DNA of 48,115 nucleotides from Klebsiella pneumoniae (GTDB lineage Bacteria > Desulfobacterota > Binatia > UBA12015). Made by a program: the position numbers and the translations under genes. Under the pieces are notes generated by a model, which saw only the letters and a list, made by a program, of their open reading frames with translations, was not told where the DNA came from and did no database searches. Shown piece by piece: positions 12,479-40,946 of this stretch; within the stretch, counting starts at the first letter, position 1, and each line of letters begins with the position of its first letter. The stretch lies in contig CAMBZJ010000024.1 of assembly GCA_945872365.1 (NCBI GenBank), positions 1-48,115 on the forward strand, read 5' to 3'.

Positions 12479-12886
12479 TCAGCGGCCGCGTCCGAAGGCG
12501 CGCGACCAGCCGACCCACGGCTCGCCCGGCAGGTCGCCGAAGCGCCACAGGAAGAGCACGACGGTCTGGGCGACCATGAGCGTCGTCAACAGGAAGAAGA
12601 GCGCCTCCTCGACCGGGAGGACCCCGGCGAGGCGCAGGCCGAGCGTGAAGCGATCGCTGATGCGCCACACGCCCGAGGCGATGCCGAGCGCGTCGGCGAA
12701 CATGAACCAGGCCGAGAGGCCGAGCGTGAGCGGAAGCCAACGGCCGAGCGTGCGCGCGAGGAGCCCCGGGAACGCGACCCACTGCCCGAGCAGAACCGGC
12801 AGCGCCCAGGCGAGCAGCCACACGAGGTAGCCGGCGTGGCCGAACGAGCGCGCCCACTGCGCGAGATCCGCGACGGCTCCGCTCAA
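12479..12886 (-). CDS. crtYd: Lycopene cyclase subunit, second half of a heterodimeric (CrtYd/CrtYf-type) enzyme
   Basis: 135 residues with three hydrophobic helices and the family motif PVEEALFFLLTTLMVAQ, the Pro-x-Glu-Glu signature of the actinobacterial/archaeal-type lycopene cyclase domain. In this family two such small membrane subunits, or a fused protein, cyclise the psi ends of lycopene or of C45/C50 flavuxanthin-type intermediates. The start is inferred to be TTG at 12886 because it overlaps the stop of the companion subunit as TTGA and leaves the family-typical length. No ATG fits. The ring type formed (beta, epsilon or gamma) cannot be read from sequence by eye. Confidence 0.85.
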   Translation of the reverse strand: MSGAVADLAQWARSFGHAGYLVWLLAWALPVLLGQWVAFPGLLARTLGRWLPLTLGLSAWFMFADALGIASGVWRISDRFTLGLRLAGVLPVEEALFFLLTTLMVAQTVVLFLWRFGDLPGEPWVGWSRAFGRGR

Positions 12887-13194
12887 TTCGCGCCCTCCGC
12901 CCGGCGCAGACGGCGCAACAGGAAGAGGGCTGCGACCCAGGTCTGCAACAGGAAGAACGCGTACTCCTCGATCGGCAGCCAGCCGATCCGGAGTCCGCTC
13001 ACCCGCCCGGGATCGAAGCCCCAGAAGCCCATCGCGACCGCGAGGTTGTCCCAGGGCGACGTCCAGAAGAGGACGACTGCGGTGAGCACGGCGAGCAGAG
13101 CAAAGTGCCGCGGCGCGAGCCGACGCCCCTCGAGTACGATCCCCGCCACGAGCGGTGGCAGGAGGAAGATGGCGAGAAAGCGCGCGTAGGTCAC
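12883..13194 (-). CDS. crtYc: Lycopene cyclase subunit, first half of a heterodimeric (CrtYc/CrtYe-type) enzyme
   Basis: 103 residues starting with GTG (VTYARFLAIFLLPP). It has three helices and the signature PIEEYAFFLLQTWVAALF, preceded by the WTSPWDN and WGFDPGRVSGLRIG stretch that is highly typical of CrtYc/CrtYe subunits. The GTG overlaps the upstream stop (GTGA) and its own stop overlaps the TTG of the next subunit, so all three are probably translationally coupled. With its partner it should form one active carotenoid cyclase. The same architecture serves beta-cyclases (Brevibacterium, Mycobacterium-like) and C50 cyclases (Corynebacterium, Micrococcus, Dietzia). Confidence 0.87.
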   Translation of the reverse strand: MTYARFLAIFLLPPLVAGIVLEGRRLAPRHFALLAVLTAVVLFWTSPWDNLAVAMGFWGFDPGRVSGLRIGWLPIEEYAFFLLQTWVAALFLLRRLRRAEGAN

Positions 13195-14015
13195 GGACGC
13201 GTCCCGGCGGCGGAAGCGGGGGCGAACTCGGCCGCCGCGGCGCGAGCCGCACCGGGAGTGCCGACAGCGTCGAGTGCCGCGCCCAGCGCCGCGAGTTTCG
13301 CCTCGTCGGGCGCACCGGAAAAGCGCGCGCGCTCGCTGCGGTCGCGATCGAGGAGCACGACGATCGCGTCCGAACTCGTGTCGGCTTCGACGGCATGCGC
13401 GACCACTCCCTCCCAATCGAGCAGGAGTGGCGGCCCGACGTGCCCCGCGCGCACCCGGTCGGCCACGACCGCGGCGATGCGCCAGCGCACGAGACCGCGC
13501 AGCACGCCCGGGACCTCGTGCAGGTCGGCGTCCGAGATCACGACGGCGTTGCGCGGCTCGCCGGGGGTCGCCCACAGCGCAAGTCCGCCGGGGTGACTGC
13601 GGTGCAGCCCTTCGCCCCAGGCGACCGCCTGGTCCGAGCCCTTGCGCCCGGCGACGATGAGCAGGACGGGTTGCGACGCGATCTCGCCCAGCGCCCAGGC
13701 CCGCCCGGTCGTGTCCTCGAGCACCGCGCCGGTGAGCGTCGCCGCGAGCGTCGCCGGCGCAGCCGGATTCGTGCCCTTCGCCGCCGCATCGCCCATCCGA
13801 CTCTGGGATGCAGGCACGCCCGGCGGCGCGGCGGGGCCACCCGCCGGCTCGTCCGCCCCGCCGACGATCGCGGGCCGCGCGGCGAGCAGCGAAAGGACGA
13901 CCGTCGTCGCGACGCCCCACGCAAACGCGGTCGACCGGCTGCGCCCCCGGACGCGGCGTGCGCGCAGGGGCACCTCGGGGCGTTCCGGCCACCGTGCGGC
14001 GAGCGGCTTCCGCAT
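13191..14015 (-). CDS. Exported thioredoxin-fold-like protein without CxxC
   Basis: 274 residues. The start at 14015 is chosen because GGGAGG stands 5 nt upstream; an in-frame ATG at 14063 is possible. Residues about 30-50 form a hydrophobic export or anchor segment. Residues about 95-260 follow a redoxin-like order: LEDTTGRAWALGEIASQPVL, then a strand ending VLLIVAGRKG where thioredoxins carry the CxxC, a helix, and a final VVLLDRDRSERARFSGAP segment like the edge strand and turn of AhpC/TSA proteins. The active-site cysteines are missing. It sits between the glycosyltransferase and cyclase genes and overlaps the latter. Role in carotenoid formation unknown. Confidence 0.6.
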   Translation of the reverse strand: MRKPLAARWPERPEVPLRARRVRGRSRSTAFAWGVATTVVLSLLAARPAIVGGADEPAGGPAAPPGVPASQSRMGDAAAKGTNPAAPATLAATLTGAVLEDTTGRAWALGEIASQPVLLIVAGRKGSDQAVAWGEGLHRSHPGGLALWATPGEPRNAVVISDADLHEVPGVLRGLVRWRIAAVVADRVRAGHVGPPLLLDWEGVVAHAVEADTSSDAIVVLLDRDRSERARFSGAPDEAKLAALGAALDAVGTPGAARAAAAEFAPASAAGTRP

Positions 14016-14065
14016 GGGGCCTCCCTTGCATCCCGCGCCGCGCGGCGCGAGCCCCGAGCGCATGC

Positions 14066-15259
14066 TCAACTCGCCCCGGTGCCGCCGACCGCGCGGCCGC
14101 GCCAGTCGATCGAGCGCCCGGAGAGGCCGGCGAGTCCGCCGAAGAGCGAGGTCGCGAGCAGCAGCGCGAGCATCGCCGGCCAGATCGCGAGAGCGGCCCA
14201 GCCCTGCTCGAAGCGCCGCAACAGCAGCGCGAACGTGCCGGAGACTGCGGCGAGGGCGACCGCCGGCAGCCAGCCGAGGAGGTCGGGCGCACCGAAGTCG
14301 AGCCGGATCCACGGCCGGAGTCCGATGAGCACGAGCAGGATGCTCAAGCCGAGCCACTGTCCAGGGTAGCGGCGCGCCGCCGAATGGAAGCTCTTGGCGA
14401 AGCCGCGCAAGAACCCGCGCGTGTCGTCGTACATGGTGCAGTCGAGCCAACGATGGCCGTCGAGCAGGGCCGTCGGAACGCCGGCCGCCTTGGCGGCGAT
14501 CGCGAGGCTCACGTCCTCGATCACGTGATCGCGCACGCCGGCGTGACCGCCGAGGCGTTCGTAGGCATCGCGGTGCACCAGGAGCGCCTGCCCGTTCGCG
14601 ACCGACAGCCGGGGGCTGCGCGTGCTGCGAACCTCGGGCAGCGGCACGAGCGCGGTCAGGAAGTAGTAGAGCCAGGGTACGGCGAAGCGATTCGACCAGT
14701 GTGCGCCGCGGTAACGCGGCAGGAACGAGACGAAATGTGCGTCGACGGAGTCCGCGGCCGCGAGCGCGGCCGCGACCCCGCCGGGTGCGAGCCGGGTGTC
14801 TGCGTCGAGGAACATGAGCCACTCGCCGCGCGCCGCGCGTGCCAACTGGTCGCAGGCGAAGTTCTTGCCACCCCAGCCCGGCGGCAGCGCTGCACCGCGC
14901 AGCAGTCGGCCGCGCCCCGCCGGGTCGGCGCGCAACGCCTGCTCCGCGAGGACCGCGGTCGCATCGGTCGAGCCGTCGTCGAGCAGCAGCACCTCGATCG
15001 GGACGTCGGCCTGGACGAGCAGGCCCGCGACGCAACCCGCGACGTTGCGCTCCTCGTCGCGGGCCGGGACGAGCAGCGACACGAGCGGCGGCGCATCGGC
15101 CAGGCGCGCCGCGCGCGCGACAGTCGCCGCGCGCGCAGCGGTCGTGCCGGGGGCCCCGTCGTGTCGACCGAGCCAGCGGCAGGAATGCCACGCACAGAGC
15201 GCCGCGCCGGAGGCGAGCGTCGCCGCGACGATGTCGAGGGCGGTCGAGACCTCGCTCAC
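14066..15259 (-). CDS. Family-2 glycosyltransferase of the carotenoid cluster (CrtQ-like)
   Basis: 397 residues, GTG start overlapping the upstream desaturase stop (GTGA). There is a hydrophobic anchor at about 5-27, then a GT2 domain: SLLVPARDEERNV, LLLDDGSTDAT, LDADTRL (the DxD metal site) and VIEDVSLA, which resembles the catalytic ED. Three C-terminal membrane helices (about 310-395) follow. This form (GT-A domain plus C-terminal helices) matches CrtQ-type 4,4'-diaponeurosporenoate glycosyltransferases and hopene-associated HpnB-like proteins. Given the operon, it most likely adds a sugar to an oxygenated carotenoid end group. No hydratase or hydroxylase for making that oxygen is recognised in the window. 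Confidence 0.82.
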   Translation of the reverse strand: MSEVSTALDIVAATLASGAALCAWHSCRWLGRHDGAPGTTAARAATVARAARLADAPPLVSLLVPARDEERNVAGCVAGLLVQADVPIEVLLLDDGSTDATAVLAEQALRADPAGRGRLLRGAALPPGWGGKNFACDQLARAARGEWLMFLDADTRLAPGGVAAALAAADSVDAHFVSFLPRYRGAHWSNRFAVPWLYYFLTALVPLPEVRSTRSPRLSVANGQALLVHRDAYERLGGHAGVRDHVIEDVSLAIAAKAAGVPTALLDGHRWLDCTMYDDTRGFLRGFAKSFHSAARRYPGQWLGLSILLVLIGLRPWIRLDFGAPDLLGWLPAVALAAVSGTFALLLRRFEQGWAALAIWPAMLALLLATSLFGGLAGLSGRSIDWRGRAVGGTGAS

Positions 15260-16740
15260 GGCGACACCATCCGGACGACGTCGCGGGCGACGAGCTTGCC
15301 GCCGAGCATGACCATCGGCACGCCGCCACCCGGCTGCGTGCTGCCGCCGACGAGCCACAGCCGTTCGACGTCGCGCGAGCGCGGCGCGGGCCGGCGGAAC
15401 GCGGTCTGGTTGAAACGGGCCGAGAGCCCGAAGATCGAGCCGGCGTGGCAGTGGTAGTCGCGCTCGAAGTCGACCGGCGTGTAGCGATGACGGACGACGA
15501 TCGACTCGCGCAGACCCGGCAGGCAAAGCCGCTCCGCGCGCTCGATGAGCCGCTCGGCGTAGGCGTCGGCGATCTCCTCCCAGCGCACGCCGTGGGCGAG
15601 CGCGGGCGCGGGCGCGAGCAGGTAGAGCGAGGTCGAGCCCTCGGGGGCGAGCGCGGGGTCGGTCACGCTCGGCGCACATATGTAGAACGAGGGCTCGGTG
15701 AGCGGCCGCTTCTCGACGAAGACCTCGCGCAGGTCGCGCGCGAAGTCCGGTCCGAAGCCGATCGTGTGGTGCGGCAGGCCGGGCCAGGTGCGCCGCGCGC
15801 CGAGGTAGAGGATGAAGGCCGAGGACGACGGTTCGAGCCGGGCCAGCCGCGCGTCGTCCATGTGGCGGCGGGGTGCGTCGCCGAGCAGGCGCCCGTAGGT
15901 GTGGTGCAGGTCGGCGTTCGAGACCACGGCGTCCGCGTCGATGCGCGAGCCGTCGGCGAGCACGACGCCGCGCGCGCGACCGTTCTCGACGGCGATCCGC
16001 TCGACCGGGCAAGAGTAGCGCAGCCGCACGCCGAGTTCGCCGCAGAGGCGCGCCGCCGCCTCCGCGATCGCATACATGCCGCCACGCGGGAACCAGACGC
16101 CCTGCGCGGCCTCGAGCCAGGCGATGAGAGCATAGGTCGCCGGCACCTCGTCGGGCGAGGCGCCGACGTAGATCGCCTGGTAGCTCGCGAGTTGGCGGAG
16201 CCGCGGGTCGCGGAACTGGCGGGCGACGCGCTTCGAGAGCGAGGTGAGCGCGTCCATCTGCATCCCCGCGATGAGCATCCGCGGCTCGAGGATGTCGGTC
16301 CAGGAATCGAACAGGCGGTCGAGGAAGTGGCGCTCGACGAGGTGGTAGATGCGCCCGGCGCGGGCGAGCCAGTCGACCCAGCGCGGCTCGTCGTCGGGCG
16401 AGATGCGCCGCACCTGGGCGAGCACCTCGGAGAGCGAGTCCGAGAGTTCGAAGACCAGCCCATCGGGGAAGTGGGCGCGGTAGAAGGGCCGCAGGGGCAG
16501 CAGCTCCAGGTAGTCGCGCGGGTTGCGCCCCGCCGCCGAGAAAAGTTCGTCGATCGCCCACGGCATGGTGAAGATCGTCGGTCCCATGTCGAAGGTGAAG
16601 CCCGCGTCGCGCAGGCGGCGCACCTTGCCCCCGGGCGCATCGCGCCCCTCGACGACCTCGACGTCGAAGCCCGCGAGCCGCAGGTGCACGGCGGCAGACA
16701 GCCCGCCCAGCCCGGCGCCGATGACGACCGCGCGCGGCAC
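15256..16740 (-). CDS. CrtI-family carotenoid desaturase/oxidase, second copy (CrtD/CrtN/CrtP-like)
   Basis: 494 residues, GTG start 4 nt after the prenyltransferase stop. The FAD/NAD-binding beta-alpha-beta motif is at the N-terminus (AVVIGAGLGGLSAAVHLRLA), followed by the family landmark GFTFDMGPTIFTMP. The C-terminal FAD contact reads GGSTQPGGGVPMVMLGG, the variant typical of CrtN, CrtP and CrtD proteins rather than the classic THPGAG of phytoene desaturase seen in the other copy. A later-step desaturation (for example 3,4-desaturation) or terminal methyl oxidation is therefore more likely than phytoene desaturation. The exact reaction is inference. Confidence 0.88.
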   Translation of the reverse strand: MPRAVVIGAGLGGLSAAVHLRLAGFDVEVVEGRDAPGGKVRRLRDAGFTFDMGPTIFTMPWAIDELFSAAGRNPRDYLELLPLRPFYRAHFPDGLVFELSDSLSEVLAQVRRISPDDEPRWVDWLARAGRIYHLVERHFLDRLFDSWTDILEPRMLIAGMQMDALTSLSKRVARQFRDPRLRQLASYQAIYVGASPDEVPATYALIAWLEAAQGVWFPRGGMYAIAEAAARLCGELGVRLRYSCPVERIAVENGRARGVVLADGSRIDADAVVSNADLHHTYGRLLGDAPRRHMDDARLARLEPSSSAFILYLGARRTWPGLPHHTIGFGPDFARDLREVFVEKRPLTEPSFYICAPSVTDPALAPEGSTSLYLLAPAPALAHGVRWEEIADAYAERLIERAERLCLPGLRESIVVRHRYTPVDFERDYHCHAGSIFGLSARFNQTAFRRPAPRSRDVERLWLVGGSTQPGGGVPMVMLGGKLVARDVVRMVSP

Positions 16741-16744
16741 CGGC

Positions 16745-17734
16745 TCAGGCCTCCCCGCTCGCGCCGCGCGCGACCACGAGCGCGGCCGCGACCGTCGCGC
16801 ACAGCGCGAGCATCGCGACCGCCGCCCAGAGCGTCCGCCCGGGATGGGCGAGCGCGATCCAGGTGACGAGCACGAAGCCCGCCGCGAGGTTGAGCGCGAT
16901 GAACGCGCGGTAGGCCGCGCGGGGCGCGTCCGCGCGCGGCGAGAACGCGATCCACGCGGCGATCGCCGCGTGCGCGATCGGCAGCAGGGCGACCAGCGGG
17001 TGGGTCGCCAGTACCAGGGCCGCAACGAGCGCGTCGAGGGCCATCGCGAGCAGCGCCGCGCGGCGGCGTCCGAGCGCGGTCGCGACCGTGGCCACGCCGC
17101 CTGCACGATCGGCCTCGATGTCCTGGATCGAGGTGAGCGCATGCGCGGCGATCGCCCAGAGGGCGAAGGCCCCGATCTCGACCCAGGGCATGGGCTTCAC
17201 GCCGAGGAGGAGCGCCGCGAAGACGAACGGCAGCACGTAGGCGGCGTTGGCGAGGGAATCCCAGCCGGGTCGCGCCTTGAGGCGCAGCGGCGGCGCGCTG
17301 TAGGCCCATGACACGGCGAGCAGCAGGGCGAGAGCCACGCTCGATGCGGCCGTGCCGGTCGCGACGAACAGGACGACGAAGGGGAGGTTCGCCGCGACCG
17401 CGAGCGCCACGAGGGCGCGCAGCGAGGAGCCGTCGATGCGCGCGCCCTCGGCCGATCCCTTGCGCGGGTTGCGGGCGTCGGTGGCCTGGTCGTGCAGGTC
17501 GTTCACGGCGTAGACGAGGAGGTTCAGCGGCCAGGTCGCGAAGAGCGCGGCGAGGGCGGCACGCCAGCCGGGTTCCGGGACGGCGAGGATCGCGGCGACC
17601 ACGCAGAGCGAGGCGCTGTTCAACCAGAAGAGCGGGCGCGACGCGGCAATCGCACGCCGCAGGAGCGCCGTCGGCCGACGTTCGCCGGCGAGGGAGGGTG
17701 TCGCACCGGAAACCGCCTGCACGGTCGCGGACAT
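16745..17734 (-). CDS. UbiA prenyltransferase, lycopene elongase-like (CrtEb/LyeJ type)
   Basis: 329 residues with about eight or nine membrane helices. The first Asp-rich motif is N78-D79-x2-D82-x3-D86, continuing as RNPRKGSAEGA. The second is D205-x3-D209 in SIQDIEADRAGG. The wording SRPLFWLN near the N-terminus, RNPRKG-x2-EGA, YSAPPLRLKARP and QDIEAD resembles actinobacterial CrtEb and haloarchaeal LyeJ, which add C5 units to lycopene. It does not resemble chlorophyll synthase, MenA or UbiA proper. ATG overlaps the upstream stop (ATGA). If correct, the pathway yields C45/C50 carotenoids. Specificity remains inferred from motifs and from neighbours. Confidence 0.8.
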   Translation of the reverse strand: MSATVQAVSGATPSLAGERRPTALLRRAIAASRPLFWLNSASLCVVAAILAVPEPGWRAALAALFATWPLNLLVYAVNDLHDQATDARNPRKGSAEGARIDGSSLRALVALAVAANLPFVVLFVATGTAASSVALALLLAVSWAYSAPPLRLKARPGWDSLANAAYVLPFVFAALLLGVKPMPWVEIGAFALWAIAAHALTSIQDIEADRAGGVATVATALGRRRAALLAMALDALVAALVLATHPLVALLPIAHAAIAAWIAFSPRADAPRAAYRAFIALNLAAGFVLVTWIALAHPGRTLWAAVAMLALCATVAAALVVARGASGEA

Positions 17735-19365
17735 CAGCCGAGCACCCGTTCGAGCACGCCGCGCGGTGGAACGCTCCAGGAAGCGTGGGGCGCGAGTCCG
17801 TGGCGTCGACCGAGGAAATTGGCCGCTTCGATTCCCGCGGTGACCGCACCCTCCATGAGCGTGGCCGGCACCGGCAGGCGAACCCAGTCGCCGGCGAAGG
17901 CGAGACCCGGCACGGGCCCCGGCGTGCGCAGACGGCTAGCCGCACTGCCCGGCGGAAAACTCGGGAAGTCCCAGCGGACCTGCGGGAAGCGGTGGTGTAC
18001 GGACATGCCGCGCAATTCGGGAAAGGCTTCGTAGAGGCGCCGTTCAAGGGTCGCGACGAGTCGTTCCGGCTCGCGCGCGTCCGCGGGATCGGGCGTGTAG
18101 GCGTGGAGTTCGTAGACCGCTCCGCGGTGGACGCGGGCCCACTCGGCCGATTCGCGCTCCATGCGGTGGTAGAGGGTGATCGAGTCGAGAGGGTTGTGGC
18201 CGTGCAGGCTCGTGAACCAGGCCCGGCGCGGGTCACACTCGCGGTCGGCCCAGAGGCGCACGACCGCGTAGGGCTGCGGCGCCGGCACGCGTGCGACGTA
18301 GTCGGCGAGTTCCGGCAGGCCGGGCACCGAGCGCTCGAGCACGCGGCGCAGGCCTGCCGGGTCCGCGGCTAGTACGACGGCGTCGGCGACGAGACGTGCG
18401 GGCTCGCCCGCCGACGCCGCGTGTCCGTCGATACCGGCGGCCGGTCGCGTCTCGACGGCGAACCGGCCGGCGGGGTCGCGGGAAATCGAGACCACCTCGG
18501 TGCCGAGCTCGACCCGTCCCCCGAGTGCTTCGAGGCGCCTGCGGATCGGCGTCCAGACGGCCTGCTCGAAGTCGCTGCGGCAATAGCGGAAGAGCAGTCC
18601 CTCGGGATTCGCGAAGAAGAAGAAGTGGAAGTTCTTCGCGATCTCCGCCGCCGAGACCTGCGCGGACTCCGAGAAGAAGGAGTGGCCGAAGACCTTGAAG
18701 ACCGCGTCGAAGCCGGTGTCGACGAGGCCCATGCGCTCGGAGAGTTCGGCGAAGGAGATGCCGTCCCAGTCGGCGAAGGTGCGCTCGGGGTCGTAGCGCA
18801 GGAAGGCGTCGCGCATGACCGCGAAGCCCTTCATGCGGCGCGCCTCGCGCATGTTCATGAAGGGCGAGCGCCGGGCCATCGCCGCGACGTTGAAGGGTGC
18901 GACGCGCGGGTAGTCGCGCAGGCCCTCCTCGCGCCCATCGGCGGCGAGGATCGCGTAGTCGTCGACGATCGGGAAGTCCGCCGGGTCGACCCCGCAGTCG
19001 AGGAAGAGCCGGTACATGTTGTAGTACTGGAGGAAGAAGCCGTGGAAGCCGTGCTCGACGGTCGCGCGCTCGCCGCCGGGCAAGTCGATGTTCCAGGCGC
19101 CGAGCTTCCCGCCGAGGTACGGGCAGCGCTCGAGCAGCCGCACGCGGAAGCCTCGCTCCGCGAGTCGGATCGCGGCCGACGCACCCGCGAGACCACCGCC
19201 GACGACGACCGCGTCGAGCGGGGCGTCGAGGCGGGGCTTGCCGATGCCGACTCCCTCGGTCACCTGCACCGGCTGGAGGCCGATCGCCCGGCCGAGCCGG
19301 GTGGCGAGGCGGTCGCCGCGGCCTCGGAAGGGGCGGGCGAAGACATGGTCTAGACGGGGGGGCAC
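17734..19365 (-). CDS. CrtU-like carotene desaturase/methyltransferase (aromatic-ring-forming type)
   Basis: 543 residues from a GTG start. An N-terminal extension of about 50 residues precedes the FAD motif AVVVGGGLAGASAAIRLAE, as in CrtU proteins. The block HGFHGFFLQYYNMYRLF and the C-terminal sequence FAGDWVRLPVPATLMEGAVT, followed by ANFLGRRHG and a terminal SWSVPPRGVLERVLG, match the isorenieratene-synthase (CrtU) family. Those enzymes desaturate and shift a methyl group on beta-rings to make aromatic end groups. They differ from CrtI and are closer to plant-type CrtP/CrtQ desaturases. The ring substrate is normally made by a lycopene cyclase, present downstream here. A zeta-carotene desaturase or HpnE-like role is a weaker alternative. 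Confidence 0.78.
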   Translation of the reverse strand: MPPRLDHVFARPFRGRGDRLATRLGRAIGLQPVQVTEGVGIGKPRLDAPLDAVVVGGGLAGASAAIRLAERGFRVRLLERCPYLGGKLGAWNIDLPGGERATVEHGFHGFFLQYYNMYRLFLDCGVDPADFPIVDDYAILAADGREEGLRDYPRVAPFNVAAMARRSPFMNMREARRMKGFAVMRDAFLRYDPERTFADWDGISFAELSERMGLVDTGFDAVFKVFGHSFFSESAQVSAAEIAKNFHFFFFANPEGLLFRYCRSDFEQAVWTPIRRRLEALGGRVELGTEVVSISRDPAGRFAVETRPAAGIDGHAASAGEPARLVADAVVLAADPAGLRRVLERSVPGLPELADYVARVPAPQPYAVVRLWADRECDPRRAWFTSLHGHNPLDSITLYHRMERESAEWARVHRGAVYELHAYTPDPADAREPERLVATLERRLYEAFPELRGMSVHHRFPQVRWDFPSFPPGSAASRLRTPGPVPGLAFAGDWVRLPVPATLMEGAVTAGIEAANFLGRRHGLAPHASWSVPPRGVLERVLG

Positions 19366-19445
19366 AGGGATAGAGTAGCGGAGGAGACGGCCAGGGGAAG
19401 CATTGGCCCCCGGTCGCAGCCACGACCGTGGCGATCAAGCACGGC

Positions 19446-19478
19446 GCCCCCGCCCGCGGCAGGGCCGCGGGCGGGGGC
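19446..19478. terminator. Very strong hairpin downstream of the DUF1566 gene
   Basis: A perfect 15-bp, all-G/C inverted repeat with a 3-nt loop, about 50 nt beyond the stop of the minus-strand DUF1566 gene and about 80 nt before the GTG of the crtU-like gene. There is no clear U-run after it on the minus strand. It may act as an attenuator or an mRNA-stability element dividing the crt transcript in two rather than as a full intrinsic terminator. Confidence 0.5.
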
Positions 19479-19506
19479 ACGAGGATCAGGTCGGGACCGC
19501 GCCGAT

Positions 19507-19532
19507 CACGAGGTCACGAGGTCACGAGGTCA
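19507..19532. repeat. Three tandem copies of an 8-bp unit at a gene end
   Basis: CACGAGGT is repeated at 19507, 19515 and 19523, followed by CA. The array ends on the stop codon of the DUF1566 gene, so copy-number change would alter only untranslated sequence. Probably a slippage repeat without function. Confidence 0.6.
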
Positions 19533-20843
19533 GTTGCTGGTGCGAACGGCGCGCAACCAGCGGTAGTTCGTCTTCTGGCTGGAACTGGTCACGCCGTAGT
19601 AAAAGACCACCGTGTCCGCGTAGGTCGGATCGGAGGACGAGGTGGCGGAGACGTAGGTTCCGGAATAAGTCGGCCCGAAGATCGGGTTGATGCACGGCCC
19701 GGTCCCGAGGCCGGGGTCGCACCCGGGGGCCGACGTGTCGACGATGCCCGAGAGCTCTCCGATGGCCGGCAGGCGCCAGGCGGAGTACCCGAGCCACGGC
19801 GTGCAGCCAGTCGCAAACGCACCCTGGCAGTTCAGCTGGTCGAGGAACACCGTCTTCGCCGTGCCGTTGAAGGAATTGTCGCCCGTGCTCCAGGTGTACT
19901 GGTTGTTCACGCCCTGCGGGTCCGGGCAGGTCGCGCCGTCGACGCAGTTCACGCCGGTCCCGGCCGTCCCGGTCTTCTTCTCCCAAATGAGCCCGGTCGT
20001 GCTGTCGGTCACCGTGCCGTTGCAGTTGTCGGTGTAGGTGCCGCCCTTGCCGTTGCTCACGGCGGACGGAGTGCAACTCGGCGTCGGCGTGGGCGTAGGC
20101 GTCGGGACGGGCGTGGGCGTCGGCGCCGGGTAGCTGAACGACGCGAAGTCGTCGATGAACGCCGTACCGGTCGAGTTCAGACCGAGGCCGCCGAGGAATC
20201 CGAGCTGGATGCCGTCGATCGCGAAGCCGTGGTTCGCGACGCCGTCCGAGACCACTTGCGTGCTCTCGACCTGCAGCGTGAGCGTGCCGTCGGTCGCTCC
20301 GACGGCGGTGGCGCGTCTCCAGTCGACCGACACCGCGACCCAGCTCTTGGGAATCGCGATCGGTGCGGTCTGCGTGCCCTTGCCCGAGTCGTCGCGGACC
20401 ACGCCGTAGATCGACCAGACCCCCGCCGAATAGCGCAGCCGAAGTTCGAACGGCCGCTGCGACGAGTCACCGAGGACGCGCCCGGCCATCAGGCGCAGGA
20501 TGCGCGGGTCGGACGGCACCTCGAGGGTGTCGAGATTCAGCGCGAAGGCGGCCGCGTAGCGCGACTCCGCCGTCGGCGACGTGTCCTTCACCCAGAGCTT
20601 CGCCCGGTTGGCCGGCGGCGGCAGCCCGGCGACGTCGAAGAGCAGGCCGTAGCTACCCGTCAGCTTGGCGGTCGGGCTCACTCTCATGAGCCCGCCCTTG
20701 GTTGAGGTCTGGCTCCACTTCGAGAGGTCGCCCGACTCGAATCCGTCCGCGAAGATCGCGACCTGGGCCTGCGCCCGACCGGCCATGGCGAACGTGGCGC
20801 AAGCCACCAGCGCCCACGCGGACGCCCTTATTCCAAATCTCAT
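19530..20843 (-). CDS. Secreted DUF1566 (Lcl-type) protein with Pro-Thr linker
   Basis: 437 residues. A clear signal peptide (about 1-26, ending AMAGRAQA) is followed by FADGFESGDLSKW, the start of a beta-sandwich common in deltaproteobacterial exported proteins. That domain of about 190 residues leads into a linker of Pro-Thr repeats (about 245-262), then a DUF1566 domain (about 265-437) with GTVTDSTTGLIWEKK and WRLPAIGEL, the usual landmarks. AAGGGA stands upstream of the ATG. The first codons AGA-TTT-GGA-ATA-AGG are rare for this genome, probably keeping the mRNA 5' end unstructured. Its place between crtB and the crtU-like gene is unexpected. Function unknown; surface or secreted. Confidence 0.85.
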   Translation of the reverse strand: MRFGIRASAWALVACATFAMAGRAQAQVAIFADGFESGDLSKWSQTSTKGGLMRVSPTAKLTGSYGLLFDVAGLPPPANRAKLWVKDTSPTAESRYAAAFALNLDTLEVPSDPRILRLMAGRVLGDSSQRPFELRLRYSAGVWSIYGVVRDDSGKGTQTAPIAIPKSWVAVSVDWRRATAVGATDGTLTLQVESTQVVSDGVANHGFAIDGIQLGFLGGLGLNSTGTAFIDDFASFSYPAPTPTPVPTPTPTPTPSCTPSAVSNGKGGTYTDNCNGTVTDSTTGLIWEKKTGTAGTGVNCVDGATCPDPQGVNNQYTWSTGDNSFNGTAKTVFLDQLNCQGAFATGCTPWLGYSAWRLPAIGELSGIVDTSAPGCDPGLGTGPCINPIFGPTYSGTYVSATSSSDPTYADTVVFYYGVTSSSQKTNYRWLRAVRTSN

Positions 20844-21033
20844 GGTCTGTCCCTTTTTCGCCACGCCAGCACCGGGCTCGGGATCGGTTGGCGACTGGAT
20901 GGTCGCGATCCCCGACGATGCCAGCGGGGTTGCTGCTTGTCGAGAGGAAATCGCCGAGGAGCGAGGTTTCGAACCCCGGCCGCAGGAAGGTGCCGCAGGG
21001 CCCTGCTCGGCCCGCTGCTCTCCCGCCCGGCAC

Positions 21034-22044
21034 TCACACCCCGCCGGCCGAGCCCACCCCCATCCCCGCCCGCGCCAGCGCCGCGTGCAGCTCCGCGCGG
21101 TGCGGCTCCCGCACGTCCCCGCGCAGCCCGGGGTCGAAGGCGCACCGGGCGCAGGCGCCGGCCACGAGCGCGAGCTTGCGCGCATCGGGCACGGCGACGC
21201 GCGCGGTGACGCCGTCGCCGCCACGCGCCTGCACGCGGCGGCCGATCTCGCGGTAGGTGAGGGCTGCCGTCAGGATCGCGGGGCGGGAGCGCGCCGGCAG
21301 CAGGCGGATACCGCCGATCCCGCTCTCGTAGTAGCGCTCGGCCAGCGCCAGCACGCGGCGGTTGGTCGCCAGCACGCCCGGCGCCGGTGCGCACCGCAAA
21401 ACCTCTTGGACCGAACTGCCCGCCTCGGCGAGCCAGTCCGCCGGCAGGTACACGCGATCGCGGGCCGCGTCCTCGCCGACGTCGCGCGCGATGTTCGTGA
21501 GTTGCATACCGATGCCGAGGTCGACCGCGCGCCGCAACGCCTCCTCGTCGGAACGCCCCATGATCCGGCTCATCATGCAGCCGACGACGCCGGCCGCACG
21601 CCAGGCGTAGACCAGTAACTCGTCCGCGTTCGCCATGCGCACGACGCCGAGATCTTGGGCCATGCCGTCGAGCAGCGCCTCGGGCTCCGCGCGCGGGATG
21701 CGCGCCGCCGCGACCACCGCCGCGAACGCGCGCCCGACCGGGTCGTCCATCGGCAGGCCGGCGCAGAGCCGGCCGAGGCGCGCGCGCGTCGCGAGGTGGC
21801 GCGCGCGCGCGTCGCCCTCCCCCGACGCGACGTCCACGTCGTCGTCGGCGCCGCGGCAGAAGGCGTAGGTCGCGATCGCGCGCTCGCGGATCGCGCGCGG
21901 CAGGAGCCGCGAGGCGACGTGGAAACTGCGCGAGTGGCGCCGGATCACCTCGTCGCAGAAGGCGAGGTCCGAGGCCGAGGCGAGCGGCGCCGCGGACGCG
22001 GGCCTCGGGTCTCGCGGGCCTCCCGGGCCCCGTGCGCCGGCCAT
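21034..22044 (-). CDS. crtB: Phytoene synthase
   Basis: 336 residues. This trans-isoprenyl-diphosphate head-to-head synthase joins two GGPP to phytoene. The first Asp-rich motif is D67-D68-D69-V-D71 (YAFCRGADDDVD). The second is NIARDVGED with D190 and D194, followed by RVYLP. These are the Mg-diphosphate-binding residues of CrtB and squalene synthase. The start at 22044 (MAGARGPGG) lies 43 nt after the crtI stop; about 20 low-complexity residues precede the conserved SFHVASRLLP region, so a start a little further downstream is possible. Neighbouring crtI favours phytoene over squalene as product. The GGPP synthase is not in the window. Confidence 0.92.
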   Translation of the reverse strand: MAGARGPGGPRDPRPASAAPLASASDLAFCDEVIRRHSRSFHVASRLLPRAIRERAIATYAFCRGADDDVDVASGEGDARARHLATRARLGRLCAGLPMDDPVGRAFAAVVAAARIPRAEPEALLDGMAQDLGVVRMANADELLVYAWRAAGVVGCMMSRIMGRSDEEALRRAVDLGIGMQLTNIARDVGEDAARDRVYLPADWLAEAGSSVQEVLRCAPAPGVLATNRRVLALAERYYESGIGGIRLLPARSRPAILTAALTYREIGRRVQARGGDGVTARVAVPDARKLALVAGACARCAFDPGLRGDVREPHRAELHAALARAGMGVGSAGGV

Positions 22045-22087
22045 GTCCGACGCCTCGGCCGCCGGACCGCGCGGGCCCGTGCCCGCC

Positions 22088-23605
22088 TCAGGCCGCCGGG
22101 CGTCCACCGGGCCCGCCCGCGCCGACGGTGCGCCGGCCGACGGCCGGGATGAGCGAGTCGGTCGCGCGCGCGCTCGACAGCACGCCCGGCAGCCCGGCTC
22201 CCGGGTGCGTGCCCGCACCGACGAAGAACAGGTCGGCGATATCGGGGCAGACGTTGTGCGCGCGGAAGTACGCGCTCTGGGTGAGCCGCGGCTCGAAGCT
22301 GAAGGCGGCGCCGAGGTGGCTCAGGAGTTCGTCGCGGAAGTCGTCGGGCGTGAACAGCCGCTCGGTGACCAGGTTCTCGCGCAGGCCGGGCACGCAGGTC
22401 CGCTCGAGGTAGTCGTAGATCGCGTCGCGGTAGGACTCCTTCGTGCGGCTCCAGTCGGTCGTCCCGGCCAGGTTCGGCACCGGCGAGAGCACGTAGAAGG
22501 CCTCGCAGCCCGGCGGGCCGAGCGAGGGATCCGAGCGCGTCGGAGCATGAAGGTAGAGGCTGAAGTCCTTCGCCAGCCGGTGCTTCGTGAAGATGTCGTC
22601 GAGCAGCCCCTCGAAGCGCGGGCCGAGCAGGATCGTGTGGTGGGCGAGGTCGGGATAGGTGCGCTTCGTCCCGAAGTAGATCAGGAAGAGGCTCATGCTG
22701 TAACGCATGCGCCGCAGCTTCGCGTCGGAGTTGTGCGGCCGGTGCTCGGGTCGCACGAGATTCTGATAGGTCCAGCTCACGTCGGAGTTGCAGACGACGA
22801 TGTCGGAGCGCAGCACCTCGCCACCCGCGAGCCGCACGCCGCGCGCGCGGCCTCCTTCGATCAGGATCTCCTCGACCGGCGACGAGAGCCGCAGCGTGCC
22901 GCCGAGTTCCTCGATGAGCCGCACGAGCGCCTGCACGACCGCCCCGGTGCCGCCGCGGGCGAAGTGCACGCCCCACTGGCGCTCGAGGTAGCAGATGAGC
23001 GCGTAGATCGCGGGAGCGTGCTGCGGGTCGCCGCCGACCAGCAGCGGGTGGAACGAGAACACCTGGCGCAGCTTCTCGCTCCGGATGTGCTTCTTCGCGA
23101 GACCGAGCACGCTGCGATAGCTCTCGAGCCGGACGAGGCTTGGCACCACCTTCACCATCGACCACGGCGTGAGGAACGGGACGTGCGCCAGTTCGACGAA
23201 GCCGCGCTCGAAAATCGCGCGGCTCTTGCGCATGAAGGTCTCGTAGCCCTCGACGTCGCCCGGGCTGAACCGGCGGACCTCCTCGCGCATGCGGGCGGCG
23301 TCGCCGTCGTAGGTGAAGACGTCCCCGTCGTCGAAGCGGATGCGATAGAACGGGTGCACCGGGAACATGTCGACGTAGTCCCGGGTCCGCGTGCCGGCGA
23401 TCTCGAAGAGTTCGTCGATCAGGAAGGGCGCGGTGATGATCGTCGGTCCGGCATCGAAGCTGAAGCCGTCCTGCCGGTAGACGTAGGCGCGACCGCCGGG
23501 CTGGTCGCGCTTCTCCGCGATCGTCACGTCCCAGCCCTTGGCGCCGAGGCGGACGGCGGCGGCGAGCCCGCCGAACCCGCTTCCGATGACGATCGCGCGC
23601 GGCAT
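22088..23605 (-). CDS. crtI: Phytoene desaturase (lycopene-forming)
   Basis: 505 residues. The N-terminal FAD motif is AIVIGSGFGGLAAAVRL, followed by GGRAYVYRQDGFSFDAGPTI, the classic CrtI opening. The C-terminal signature is VGAGTHPGAGLPGV. Bacterial CrtI carries out three or four desaturations of phytoene to neurosporene or lycopene, at the membrane and with FAD. AAGGGGG stands 7 nt before the ATG. It is the first structural gene after the CarH-like regulator (40 nt gap) and crtB follows. About 15 extra Gly/Pro-rich residues at the C-terminus are unremarkable. Confidence 0.95.
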   Translation of the reverse strand: MPRAIVIGSGFGGLAAAVRLGAKGWDVTIAEKRDQPGGRAYVYRQDGFSFDAGPTIITAPFLIDELFEIAGTRTRDYVDMFPVHPFYRIRFDDGDVFTYDGDAARMREEVRRFSPGDVEGYETFMRKSRAIFERGFVELAHVPFLTPWSMVKVVPSLVRLESYRSVLGLAKKHIRSEKLRQVFSFHPLLVGGDPQHAPAIYALICYLERQWGVHFARGGTGAVVQALVRLIEELGGTLRLSSPVEEILIEGGRARGVRLAGGEVLRSDIVVCNSDVSWTYQNLVRPEHRPHNSDAKLRRMRYSMSLFLIYFGTKRTYPDLAHHTILLGPRFEGLLDDIFTKHRLAKDFSLYLHAPTRSDPSLGPPGCEAFYVLSPVPNLAGTTDWSRTKESYRDAIYDYLERTCVPGLRENLVTERLFTPDDFRDELLSHLGAAFSFEPRLTQSAYFRAHNVCPDIADLFFVGAGTHPGAGLPGVLSSARATDSLIPAVGRRTVGAGGPGGRPAA

Positions 23606-23645
23606 CTTCGACCCCCTTACTACCAGACCCGGAGCGGACTTCCGA

Positions 23646-24566
23646 TCAGGCCGACGACGACGACCCGGCGTCGCCCTCGGCCACCAGGCCGGGGAGCGAG
23701 CGGGCGAAGCGCGCGAGATCCGACATCGACGCGAGCGCACGCACCCGCGCATGGATGCTCGCCTGCGGGTCCGGGCACGACTGCCCTCCGACGACGACCC
23801 AACCACCCCACGGGGCGACGCGCTCGGCGAGGGCGAGCAGGTCCTCCTCGACCGCGCGCGCGGGGACGATCCGCGTGACCGAGCGCCACACGATCGCCGG
23901 GCGATAGCGATCGACCGCCGCGAGCATCGCCTCGATCGGCGAATCCGCGCCGAGGTTCATCTCGACGTAACCCGCCTCCGCGAGGACGATCGCGGCGCCC
24001 AGCGAAGGCAAAACGAACGGATCCCCCGACGGCGAACCGCCGACGGCGCAGGGCGCGCCGGCACCCGGCTTGGGGATCGCAGAACGCATCGTGCTGAGCG
24101 CATGTACGGCCGTGTCGACCGCCCGGTGTTCGAGAACGATCCCGGCGGGCTCGTCCTTCCACCGCTCGCCGATCTTCTCGAGGGCCACCCGAAGCGAGCC
24201 GTCGAGGATCGCCGCGATCGAGGAGCCCGACAGGAATTCGCCGAGCAGGAGCCCGCGGGCGGTCTTCTGGTCGTCCCGCTCCAGGGCTTCGAGGAGGGCG
24301 TGGCCGGCGTACCCAGGCTCGAGCCGGGCGTCGAAGCGCACGTCTCCGAATCCCAGGATATCGGGCCGGACGACCGTGCAGCGGGTCTCGCGGATGAAGC
24401 GGACGGCCTCGCTGAGCGAGATCCGGCGGTGCCCCCCGGCGGTCCGGGTGGCCTGGAGAAAACCCTCGTCCGCCCAGCGTTTCAGGGAGGATTCGCTCAC
24501 GCCGATGGCGGTCGCGAGGTCCCGGGGGGTGAGGAAGCTCTCGATCACCAGACGATAGAAGCGCAT
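23646..24566 (-). CDS. MerR/CarH (LitR)-type regulator with degenerate cobalamin-binding domain
   Basis: 306 residues. The MerR-type winged helix is at about 10-60 (LTPRDLATAIGVSESSLKRW, GGHRRISLSEAVRFI). The middle four-helix bundle contains W136-x9-E146-H147, exactly the CarH spacing for the residues that cap adenosylcobalamin. The following Rossmann-like B12 domain (about 172-285) is recognisable (EAGYVEMNLGAD, VVVGG), but the axial-ligand motif normally E/D-x-H-x2-G reads D182-P-F184-V-L-P. The histidine is therefore replaced by Phe. CarH and CarA repress carotenoid genes in the dark. Heading the crt cluster, this protein is its most likely regulator, although cobalamin or light sensing may be altered or lost. 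Confidence 0.88.
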   Translation of the reverse strand: MRFYRLVIESFLTPRDLATAIGVSESSLKRWADEGFLQATRTAGGHRRISLSEAVRFIRETRCTVVRPDILGFGDVRFDARLEPGYAGHALLEALERDDQKTARGLLLGEFLSGSSIAAILDGSLRVALEKIGERWKDEPAGIVLEHRAVDTAVHALSTMRSAIPKPGAGAPCAVGGSPSGDPFVLPSLGAAIVLAEAGYVEMNLGADSPIEAMLAAVDRYRPAIVWRSVTRIVPARAVEEDLLALAERVAPWGGWVVVGGQSCPDPQASIHARVRALASMSDLARFARSLPGLVAEGDAGSSSSA

Positions 24567-26258: not shown

Positions 26259-27449
26259 ATGTTCCTCGAACTCTTTTACGGCCTGAAGGAGGAAGGCGTC
26301 CCGGTCTCCCTCCAGGAGTGGCGCTCCTTCCTCCAGGCTCTCGAGGAGGGCCTCCACGGCTGCAGCCTGCTGCGCTTCTACCACCTCGGCCGCGCCTGCC
26401 TGATCAAGAGCGAGACCTACTTCGACTCCTACGACAAGGTCTTCGCGCGGGTGTTCAAGGGGGTCGAGGGGGCCCTTGGCGACGATGTCACCGAGCAGAT
26501 CCTGGAGTGGCTGAAGGATCCGAAGAACCTCCCCGAACTCTCGCCCGAGGAGTGGGCACAGCTCGAACAGCTGACCAACGACGAACTCATGCGCCGCTTC
26601 CTCGAGACGCTCGAGAAGCAGGACGGGCGCCACGACGGCGGCAATCGCTGGGTCGGCACCGGCGGCCGATCGCCCTTTGGACACGGCGGCAAGCACCCGA
26701 CCGGGATTCGGGTCGGCGGCCCGGGGCGTTCGCGCTCAGCGATGAAGGTGGCCGAGGAGCGGCGCTTCGCCGACTATCGCACCGACCAGGTGCTCGACAC
26801 CCGCCAGATGCGGGTCGCGCTGCGGCGCCTGCGCCAGTTGACGCGTACCGGCACCCAGAGCGAGCTCGACCTCGACGAGACGATCGACGAGACCTGCAGG
26901 AACGCGGGCGAGATCGAGATGGTCTTCCGCGCCCCGCGGCGCAACGACGTACGCCTGCTGCTGCTCATGGACGTCGGCGGCACGATGGACCCCTACGTCG
27001 ACGGCGTGAGCCAGTTGCTGACGGCGCTGCACGAGGAGCGCGGCTTGCGCGACTTCAAGGCCTACTACTTCCACAACTGCGTCTACGACCACCTCTACAC
27101 GCACGCCCGGATGGGCCGCGACGAAGCGGTGCCGACCGGCGACATCCTGCGCCGCCTCGACTCGCGCTGGAAAGTGGCACTCGTCGGCGACGCGGCCATG
27201 CACCCGGCCGAACTCGCCGACGCCTACGGCGGCATCGACCCGCGCGTGACCACGCCGACACCCGGCATCGAGTGGCTCGGGCGCATCGCCGGCCACTTCG
27301 ATCGCTCGGTGTGGATCAACCCCGAGGACATCGCGCGCTGGGACGACTACCGCACGGTGCGGATCATCCGGAAGGTGTTCCCGATGTACCACCTGAGCGT
27401 CGACGGCTTGTCGCAAGCGGTGTCGGCACTCGTCGGCGCCCGGGCCTGA
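26259..27449 (+). CDS. CoxE-like VWA-domain protein, partner of the preceding MoxR
   Basis: 396 residues. The N-terminal helical part (FLELFYGLKEEGVPVSLQEW, about 1-110) is typical of CoxE-like proteins. A Gly/His-rich linker (about 125-155) follows, then the VWA domain (about 215-390). The metal-ion site reads D-V-G-G-T (LLLLMDVGGTMDPYV), a substitution of the usual DxSxS in which the first Ser is Gly; this variant recurs in the COG3552-like branch. With MoxR it should form an ATP-driven activation pair acting in the cytoplasm. The gene converges with the GT39-like gene through a shared hairpin. Confidence 0.88.
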   Translation: MFLELFYGLKEEGVPVSLQEWRSFLQALEEGLHGCSLLRFYHLGRACLIKSETYFDSYDKVFARVFKGVEGALGDDVTEQILEWLKDPKNLPELSPEEWAQLEQLTNDELMRRFLETLEKQDGRHDGGNRWVGTGGRSPFGHGGKHPTGIRVGGPGRSRSAMKVAEERRFADYRTDQVLDTRQMRVALRRLRQLTRTGTQSELDLDETIDETCRNAGEIEMVFRAPRRNDVRLLLLMDVGGTMDPYVDGVSQLLTALHEERGLRDFKAYYFHNCVYDHLYTHARMGRDEAVPTGDILRRLDSRWKVALVGDAAMHPAELADAYGGIDPRVTTPTPGIEWLGRIAGHFDRSVWINPEDIARWDDYRTVRIIRKVFPMYHLSVDGLSQAVSALVGARA

Positions 27450-40800: not shown

Positions 40801-40946
40801 CCCGGGGAGAGTTCCCCGTCGAGCGAGGGGGCGACCGCGCGCAGGCGAGCGGCGAAGCCGGGGCTCGTTTCCTCGAGGTCGTCCGCGAGGCGCGCCAGCA
40901 CGTGGGTTCGCGCGTCTTCGGCGCCGGGCGGATCGATGGCTGCCAT
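37857..40946 (-). CDS. NorD-like VWA protein (activator partner of CbbQ/NorQ ATPases)
   Basis: 1029 residues. The N-terminal 450 residues are alpha-helical repeats (Ala/Leu-rich), as in large CbbO/NorD variants, then a middle acidic stretch (SYMLEEEDEPRPG, about 600-650). The C-terminal VWA domain (about 795-1025) begins TLFLLDMSASTDEE, contains IYGFSGHGRDCVEF, and ends with LRDTTMALREA and TFCITVDRAGHDYL. A Pro/Ala-rich insert follows the metal site. NorD/CbbO proteins work with CbbQ/NorQ hexamers to remodel nitric oxide reductase or rubisco. The only ATPase of that class here is 5.5 kb away at 46401. No norB, norC or rubisco genes are present. Confidence 0.88.
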   Translation of the reverse strand: MAAIDPPGAEDARTHVLARLADDLEETSPGFAARLRAVAPSLDGELSPGMAQAFAESLRRLAVIEGPGRDAAQALLARPLADVATLSPDDLVAWCDAAATVAVHSVRAASTFAASSIEVLPGAPADRTSRLRDTAAAITRLAARHGGDPVVQRFAGAAGAAIVRRGGRVAAAWAGLCEAAAFAARRAPEATLHLPAAAGLDDAELAAAIDVAAMVAARDRERGLRLFARLPEELARVPRHARPAATALLASLARSPEALADAVEVVAPVLRRAPREARRVVLEQAARIAGRLPAATPRWLRSVLRVGDALGFEVALVAFVDKGLELAEEQPQAALAFFALESRGSREFLKRHDSAALLDDVENTLRGYLQMIAMERRSIAGRDSRGLFPEIAFDDGPVPVATRADVFPNWEENFTLLKLQATLGSLWEEIGTRRFSVADWLGEPDQPGGLREMFLRFAEPEVAARLFAHLEAVRAAPVVRRRFPGLASDVAVLRRRVFPDDRPPAGHGAAEAVLFLALGGAADRVAFAAGWGEAVQRLAVRSAAGEATVYDSAAATEVLCERLAAGELIPVYSVDDWLEEDLAFSYMLEEEDEPRPGVPVAPRDGPESIVDESGDGHRSDESSPGINADAALLEAYLEQRPDLSVARAEEEIDAVGLFVSGLTGGGGDWETKPRGGPSPDRSIALARHGLRTNDVTLQDEWDYLIDDYRHQWCRVHEVAVDGDDGGFFAGTLARYADMLPEVRRQFQRVKPEGYRVIRGLLDGEDFDLNAVVMARGDLRARRTPSAKLYTARQREERDVATLFLLDMSASTDEETEPSPASAPTDPDAPAPPVAAALADDLPASPPGKKPRPRRIIDIQKEALVIMSQALEEIGDQYAIYGFSGHGRDCVEFFDVKSFDQPLNQAVRARIGAIEPQRSTRMGAALRQAIGKLRSVASRARHLILLSDGFPQDFDYGEDRRSNVYGLRDTTMALREAAAAGVQTFCITVDRAGHDYLREMCDAKRYLVIEDIAALPRELPKIYSEATRDA

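Follow-up and report, generated by a model that had tools for sequence, protein, structure and literature searches.

Overlapping genes for a CrtU-clade flavoenzyme and an elongase-group UbiA prenyltransferase, fused in a sister genus, and a possible route to an asymmetric aromatic C45 carotenoid glycoside

Why would a gene for a CrtU-like enzyme, of a family that makes aromatic carotenoid rings, be joined to a gene for a UbiA prenyltransferase resembling those that elongate open carotenoid ends? The question was raised by a preliminary description of contig CAMBZJ010000024.1 (assembly GCA_945872365.1; GTDB lineage Desulfobacterota, Binatia, UBA12015), contig 24 of a 3.1 Mb genome in 57 contigs, whose whole length of 48,115 nt is referred to here as the window. 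The pair belongs to a minus-strand carotenoid cluster that runs from a CarH-like regulator through CrtYd (Table 1), and both proteins matched their Pfam families above the cut-off (Amino_oxidase, 111 bits, for the flavoenzyme; UbiA, 66 bits, for the prenyltransferase). The two genes overlap, as had been described, with one base (17734) common to both. The junction itself had been given as ATGA at 17732-17735; on the minus strand the stop codon TGA (17736-17734) and the start codon ATG (17734-17732) in fact form 5'-TGATG-3'. Taken on its own, this overlap is ordinary, since the CrtI-2/glycosyltransferase and CrtYc/CrtYd genes of the same cluster likewise overlap, and according to PMC6393565 overlapping genes are frequent in carotenoid operons.

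The pairing is more than chance, because in two species of a sister genus of the same family (G004 and G008) CrtU and UbiA are encoded as one open frame. We searched 58 genomes for relatives of the flavoenzyme and found matches of at least 283 bits in five, namely the source genome (G000), G001, G004, G008 and G039; the next match scored 63 bits. The fused protein has 849 amino acids in G008 and reaches the contig end in G004. The two fusions share 82% identity over 830 residues, and their junction has neither a stop codon nor the N-terminal extension present in the window, which makes it unlikely that the fusion stems from a sequencing error. In five genomes of the source family we saw parts of the cluster; in the three where the assembly keeps both genes together (G000, G004 and G008), they either overlap or are fused. 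The surroundings agree as well: in G008 the fusion is followed by CrtI-2, glycosyltransferase, CrtYc and CrtYd in the order of the window, and in G004 CrtB and CrtI-1 lie ahead of it, again matching the window. In G002, which belongs to the genus of the window, the end of UbiA is likewise followed by CrtI-2, glycosyltransferase, CrtYc and CrtYd. The G002 contig breaks off inside the UbiA gene and the G001 contig inside the flavoenzyme gene; there was no UbiA match elsewhere in the G001 genome, and the flavoenzyme search of G002 gave weak matches only (best E 5e-5).

Outside the family, the flavoenzyme relative of G039, a genome from a different family within the same class, is part of a CrtYc-CrtYd-CrtU triple fusion of about 750 amino acids (L033, 9800-12049), with a polyprenyl synthase (Pfam-confirmed), CrtB and CrtI upstream; no UbiA of the elongase group was found in that genome. 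This triple fusion ties the CrtU-clade enzyme family to cyclised ends. A phylum-wide draw of 297 genomes, with four candidates scored per genome and G004 and G008 evidently outside the draw, gave CrtU matches at E <= 1e-50 in one genome (the source genome itself) and UbiA matches at E <= 1e-8 in two (the source genome and G132). The G132 UbiA is 31% identical to that of the window, and no other cluster query matched nearby.

The CrtU-like identity proposed for the flavoenzyme was borne out by its phylogenetic position. We built a 44-row, 495-column tree from 35 of 57 candidate loci and nine further rows; L021 and L022, which gave no match, and 20 others, by choice, were not included. Labels were checked against models for four of the eight HpnE rows and five of the six CrtP/CrtQ rows and otherwise assigned by similarity; the two Chlorobiaceae rows (L137 and L140) scored under both equivalog cut-offs. 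The window flavoenzyme, its G001 relative and the two fused relatives formed one clade (support 100/100), nested in a 28-row clade of CrtU and CruE (100/99). The HpnE and CrtP/CrtQ rows lay on the opposite side of the tree (99/96); thus, the enzyme does not group with the hydroxysqualene dehydroxylases (HpnE) or with zeta-carotene desaturases. Consistent with this, 22 of 25 signature residues that mark 24 other rows of the CrtU/CruE clade are present in the window flavoenzyme, the departures being at protein positions 149, 215 and 249, as against 1 of 16 HpnE and 1 of 31 CrtP/CrtQ signature residues. A tblastn search against plasmids matched 16 records at 33-38% identity (Streptomyces 11, Streptantibioticus 2, and Kitasatospora, Candidatus Thiodictyon syntrophicum and Calothrix one each). 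We conclude that placement of the flavoenzyme in the CrtU/CruE family is well supported by its sequence.

Within the CrtU clade the window group forms a deep branch of its own (length 0.72). The branch uniting it with the Rieske-less rows has support of only 91/84, and six Rieske-bearing rows (cyanobacterial, Chlorobiaceae and Thiodictyon) form a separate branch (98/92). Pfam detected no Rieske domain in the window flavoenzyme, which places it outside the CruE-type, Rieske-bearing subgroup. Of 18 columns that distinguish phi-type from chi-type enzymes, nine are chi-like, five phi-like and four neither; given that the columns are mixed and confounded by ancestry (all 12 phi rows being actinobacterial), we dropped the assignment by these columns. 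A predicted structure (built from 18 sequences; mean predicted local distance difference test score 85.2, predicted template modelling score 0.89) was nearest to rice phytoene desaturase (5mog; Z 36.9, root-mean-square deviation 2.3, 444 aligned residues; next Z 27.9), and thus has the expected phytoene-desaturase-like FAD (flavin adenine dinucleotide) fold, which is unspecific, as all 1000 compared chains reached Z of at least 8. In the tree, a pair of FAD proteins from Okeania (L135) and Cylindrospermum (L136) is placed next to the CrtU/CruE clade (99/96); no NCBIfam model matched the cyanobacterial protein L135 at E <= 1e-40.

That the UbiA protein is elongase-like held at the level of the group. 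It scored 187 bits on model PRK13105, 174 on PRK13595 and 147 on PRK12875, and at most 44 on the other models listed. PRK13105 can be read as a CrtEb model, because the elongase part of an Arthrobacter plasmid fusion, which lies in a carotenoid cluster, scores 470 bits on it; PRK12875 we take to be the haloarchaeal LyeJ model. In the Arthrobacter fusion the elongase-type domain follows a cyclase domain, and the gene adjoins a further cyclase gene, CrtI and CrtB; the window UbiA is 36% identical to this elongase. Its score falls short of that of a CrtEb equivalog (187 bits against a cut-off of 217). The sequence thus supports membership of the CrtEb/LyeJ elongase group, and does not prove membership of any single equivalog.

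The view that aromatisation and elongation are alternatives in known organisms agreed with both the literature and a genome survey. In Brevibacterium, an elongase and a C50 cyclase are presumed to have been displaced by CrtU (PMC2889829), and PMC5401885 reports no elongase-type gene for Brevibacterium linens; the legend text of its Figure 1 names crtEb/ubiA and crtU among the genes drawn. We surveyed 248 genomes from the (actinobacterial) order of a Microbacterium, with up to nine elongase and up to five CrtU candidates scored per genome. An elongase match at E <= 1e-40 was present in 88 and a CrtU match at E <= 1e-60 in 22; both occurred in a single genome (G441), where the two genes lie on separate contigs, each accompanied by a cyclase pair of its own. 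Independence would predict about eight such genomes (Fisher p = 0.0008, kinship ignored). Among the genomes searched, linked or fused CrtU and UbiA were found only in the family of the window. To look for an elongase in CrtU-bearing genomes, we ran an elongase profile (A2) on 24 genomes or records, of which six matched at E <= 1e-5; the top match (449 bits) was the Arthrobacter plasmid, which lacks CrtU, contributes a row to A2 and served as a positive. The next match, in Amorphoplanes (76 bits on A2, 64.5 on PRK12875 and 34 on PRK13595), was not counted as an elongase.

The two enzymes share a cluster with one pair of cyclase halves, and the kinship of these bears on which ends are cyclised. 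For a cyclase tree we joined the CrtYc/CrtYd-type domains (38 rows and 187 columns, six repeat loci omitted); in this tree the cyclases of the window and of G008 grouped with those of Thermus thermophilus and Deinococcus deserti (100/99). The 14 cyclase pairs found beside elongases, not split into e/f, g/h and Lbt types, were set apart (99/96), as were the 19 pairs from CrtU loci (83/93); the program warns of long branches in this tree. The window cyclase thus does not group with the elongase-side type (CrtYe/Yf and kin) that would mark a C50 cluster. In agreement with the tree, plasmid matches of the two halves (33 and 34 records, E <= 0.05) came from Thermus and Deinococcus only. Since Thermus pigments are C40 carotenoids, this kinship indicates that the cyclase of the cluster is of the C40 type. 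The glycosyltransferase matched 55 plasmid records; of those listed, D. deserti scored best (108 bits), with slightly lower scores for Azospirillum and Indioceanicola (106 bits) and Thermus (at most 102 bits). In both D. deserti and Thermus, the glycosyltransferase gene is part of the cluster that also holds the related cyclase. On its plasmid, D. deserti encodes a Thermus-type lycopene cyclase fused to a CruF (PF04240) domain (L178, 6464-7912), which is an independent precedent for joining carotenoid enzymes that act on opposite ends.

Enzymes of the CrtU/CruE family desaturate a beta ring and shift a methyl group from C1 to C2 (PMC10604819), and elongases put a C5 unit on C2 of the psi end of lycopene (PMC6393565). 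We reasoned that one end would hardly undergo both reactions, because both known chemistries need C2. Given also a C40-type cyclase, the simplest plan would be that one end is cyclised and aromatised and the other elongated. Elongation of one end is possible, since Kim et al. (as cited in PMC6393565) reported activity of CrtEb on a C30 carotenoid, at its psi end. In Haloarcula, LyeJ is described as a bifunctional elongase and 1,2-hydratase, with its gene between a CrtI/CrtD-type gene and cruF (PMC11946383); downstream of the window UbiA gene there is likewise a CrtI/CrtD-like gene, with the glycosyltransferase gene next.

We therefore propose that the cyclase with CrtU and the UbiA protein act on two different ends of one carotenoid, a reading to which we assign a probability of slightly more than one half. 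CrtB and CrtI would produce lycopene, and the Thermus-type CrtYc/CrtYd would close one psi end to a beta ring, which the CrtU-clade enzyme would then desaturate, shifting the C1 methyl group to C2, to give an aromatic ring of phi or chi type. UbiA would attach a C5 unit at C2' of the other, open psi end, probably leaving a hydroxyl there, like LyeJ or CrtEb; CrtI-2 may desaturate the elongated end in the manner of CrtD, and the family-2 glycosyltransferase would glycosylate the hydroxyl. The predicted product is an asymmetric, glycosylated C45 carotenoid with one aromatic and one C5-elongated end. The overlap in the window and the fusion in the sister genus might ensure equal amounts of the two enzymes or a joint location at the membrane. 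The more specific proposal, that these are the split (window) and fused (sister genus) forms of a natural bifunctional CrtU-UbiA that makes both ends of an aromatic C45 glycoside, is a tentative one that falls a little short of an even chance. The preliminary description had offered two outcomes, an asymmetric carotenoid and a new role for the CrtU-like enzyme on C50 rings; the first appears to fit better, and the second is disfavoured by the kinship of the cyclase and by the common use of C2.

Several points weigh against a two-ended C45 product. The cluster is known from its genes, from which we infer both activities and product. A Thermus-type cyclase may close both ends, in which case CrtU would yield isorenieratene and no psi end would be left; Thermus makes zeaxanthin glucosides, which have two rings. 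The UbiA protein scores under all three elongase-group equivalog cut-offs (217, 248 and 205 bits for PRK13105, PRK13595 and PRK12875), and the latter two models are not clean elongase markers: PRK13595 matched five of 14 control genomes (Deinobacterium, Corynebacterium, Haloferax, Sulfolobus and Methanosarcina), PRK12875 matched ten, and each was above its cut-off in one. In G441 both chemistries coexist as separate clusters. Lastly, the source genome encodes a separate PF04240 (CruF-like) protein (54.6-55.6 bits), as does G001, which could supply the hydroxyl without UbiA; none was found in G004, G008 or G039.

The alternative that survives best, although we consider it unlikely, is that one operon serves two product lines, with CrtYc/CrtYd and CrtU making a C40 aromatic carotenoid and UbiA making an acyclic C45 or C50 carotenoid from lycopene, and that overlap and fusion serve only matched expression or placing in the membrane. 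Lycopene is usable by both enzyme types, G441 has both pathways, each with its own cyclase pair, and the alternative would gain if the Thermus-type cyclase closes both ends. However, a single fused protein in G004 and G008 and a single cyclase pair suggest one route, and an elongase and CrtU were found together in just one of the 248 genomes surveyed.

There is a smaller chance that UbiA prenylates or hydrates something else, for example by working solely as a hydratase of the psi end or by using a quinone as substrate, and that CrtU contributes to ordinary aromatic C40 glycosides. The missed cut-offs, the varied control genomes matched by the group models and an identity of just 36% to the Arthrobacter elongase would all agree with this. 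It is countered by the margin of more than 100 bits by which the three group models exceed any other listed, and by the setting of the gene within a carotenoid cluster, with a CrtI/CrtD-like neighbour and with fusion to CrtU in relatives; moreover, three further UbiA genes elsewhere in the source genome may serve quinone or haem synthesis.

We regard as improbable a new role for the CrtU-clade enzyme in which it desaturates or aromatises a C2-prenylated, C50-type ring that already bears the C5 unit. The deep branch of the window group and the three signature residues from which it departs would agree with such a role, but the window cyclase falls outside the group of 14 elongase-side pairs, and a ring with C2 already substituted could not be aromatised by the known shift of a methyl group to that carbon, as far as we infer from PMC10604819 and PMC6393565. 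An HpnE-like or zeta-carotene-desaturase-like flavoenzyme in place of CrtU is hardly credible and was rejected: HpnE (TIGR03467) is the best NCBIfam model, but at 123 bits it is far below its cut-off of 283 and is uninformative, because Streptomyces CrtU itself scores just 143 bits on it; the 25 NCBIfam models listed for the window flavoenzyme include no CrtU model, the CrtP/CrtQ models TIGR02731 and TIGR02732 gave 35 and 59 bits (cut-offs 569 and 622), and both the tree and the signature residues contradict the assignment.

The remaining genes of the cluster are listed in Table 1. The Lcl_C-domain gene looks inserted, since CrtB and the fused gene are immediate neighbours in G004. The protein encoded at 13190-14064 gave no match in a Pfam search and has a relative at the same place in G002 (53% identity over 127 residues). 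When the CarH-like regulator was aligned to Thermus CarH it had GDPFVL in place of GERHEI, the histidine of which is presumably the cobalamin ligand, and Pfam matched its DNA-binding part only; the regulator may be a light-independent or B12-independent relative of CarH. Beyond the cluster, the second half of the window encodes three VWA-domain proteins (26259-27449 and 32718-34610 on the plus strand, 37857-40946 on the minus strand), one of them CoxE-like and one BatA-like.

Table 1. Coordinates of the gene pair, its junction and the other genes of the carotenoid cluster in the window
Feature	Positions	Strand	Remarks
CrtU-clade FAD enzyme gene	17734-19365	minus	GTG start; 543 amino acids; Pfam Amino_oxidase; predicted beta-ring desaturase with methyl shift (aromatase)
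UbiA prenyltransferase gene, CrtEb/LyeJ-type elongase group	16745-17734	minus	ATG start; 329 amino acids; motifs NDLHDQATD and DIEAD
Stop/start overlap of the CrtU-like and ubiA genes	17732-17736	minus	TGATG; one common base (17734)
CarH-like MerR regulator	23646-24566	minus	without the histidine that Thermus CarH (motif GERHEI) has at the aligned position
CrtI-1, phytoene desaturase family	22088-23605	minus	
CrtB phytoene synthase	21034-~22090	minus	start approximate, open reading frame extends to 22218; Pfam SQS_PSY, 230 bits
Lcl_C-domain protein	19530-~21030	minus	between CrtB and the CrtU-like gene
CrtI-2, second CrtI-family desaturase (CrtI/CrtD-like)	15256-16740	minus	start 4 bases past the UbiA stop
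Family-2 glycosyltransferase, HpnB/CruG-like	14066-15259	minus	overlaps the CrtI-2 stop
Unassigned protein	13190-14064	minus	between glycosyltransferase and CrtYc; redoxin-like by eye
CrtYc, first half of Thermus-type lycopene cyclase	12883-13194	minus	
CrtYd, second half of Thermus-type lycopene cyclase	12479-12886	minus	TTG start; 4-base overlap with CrtYc

We compared the cluster with known systems. The window flavoenzyme shares clade, fold type and signature residues with the CrtU/CruE enzymes of isorenieratene (Streptomyces), okenone (Thiodictyon) and synechoxanthin (cyanobacteria) synthesis, and a lycopene cyclase lies nearby in many of these relatives, as it does in the window; the Streptomyces locus, for example, has cyclase, methyltransferase and CrtU genes, with DUF5914, CrtB, CrtI and polyprenyl synthase genes on the opposite strand. 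The window enzyme differs in that it has 30-43% identity to those named relatives with which it was aligned, sits on a deep branch apart, lacks the Rieske domain of the six cyanobacterial, Chlorobiaceae and Thiodictyon rows, and is joined to a UbiA. The latter falls by profile score in the same group as the C50 elongases CrtEb, LbtC, CrtE2 and LyeJ, but below their equivalog cut-offs, and its partner is a CrtU instead of a C50 cyclase. Dietzia LbtBC is a fusion of an elongase to a C50 cyclase subunit (PMC6393565), like the fusion of elongase and end-group enzyme in the relatives of the window; however, both parts of LbtBC serve the same end, whereas the partner here is of a family that aromatises beta rings. 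The Thermus pTT27 cluster (CarH, CrtB, photolyase, P450, cyclase, acyltransferase and glycosyltransferase) has a cyclase, a glycosyltransferase and a CarH gene related to those of the window, which differs in having CrtU and UbiA and a CarH-like protein without the aligned histidine; neither a P450 nor an acyltransferase was seen within 12479-24566. The predicted product would follow the same plan as chlorobactene and okenone pathways (hydroxy-chlorobactene glucoside ester is named in PMC8262859 and okenone in PMC10604819), with an aromatic end and a modified, glycosylated acyclic end, except that the psi end would be C5-elongated by UbiA, giving a C45 skeleton.

The enzyme families themselves are known; what is new is their combination and fusion. 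Among the publication titles and abstract openings listed, there was no report that combines CrtU or isorenieratene with a lycopene elongase, CrtEb, UbiA or C45/C50 carotenoids. CrtU/CruE annotations concerning aromatic carotenoids are reported for Myxococcota (PMC10576062), and routes to isorenieratene and chlorobactene are predicted for Binatota in a study whose main text contains neither "elongase" nor "C50" (PMC8262859). The finding is well supported at the level of the genes, and the product that they predict is a specific one. C5-elongated carotenoids are thought to brace membranes. Aromatic carotenoids serve as geological biomarkers (PMC9560492). If the prediction is true, the cluster would add a pigment skeleton, and one more lineage as a possible source of aromatic carotenoids, and would provide a ready-made two-ended enzyme for pathway building.

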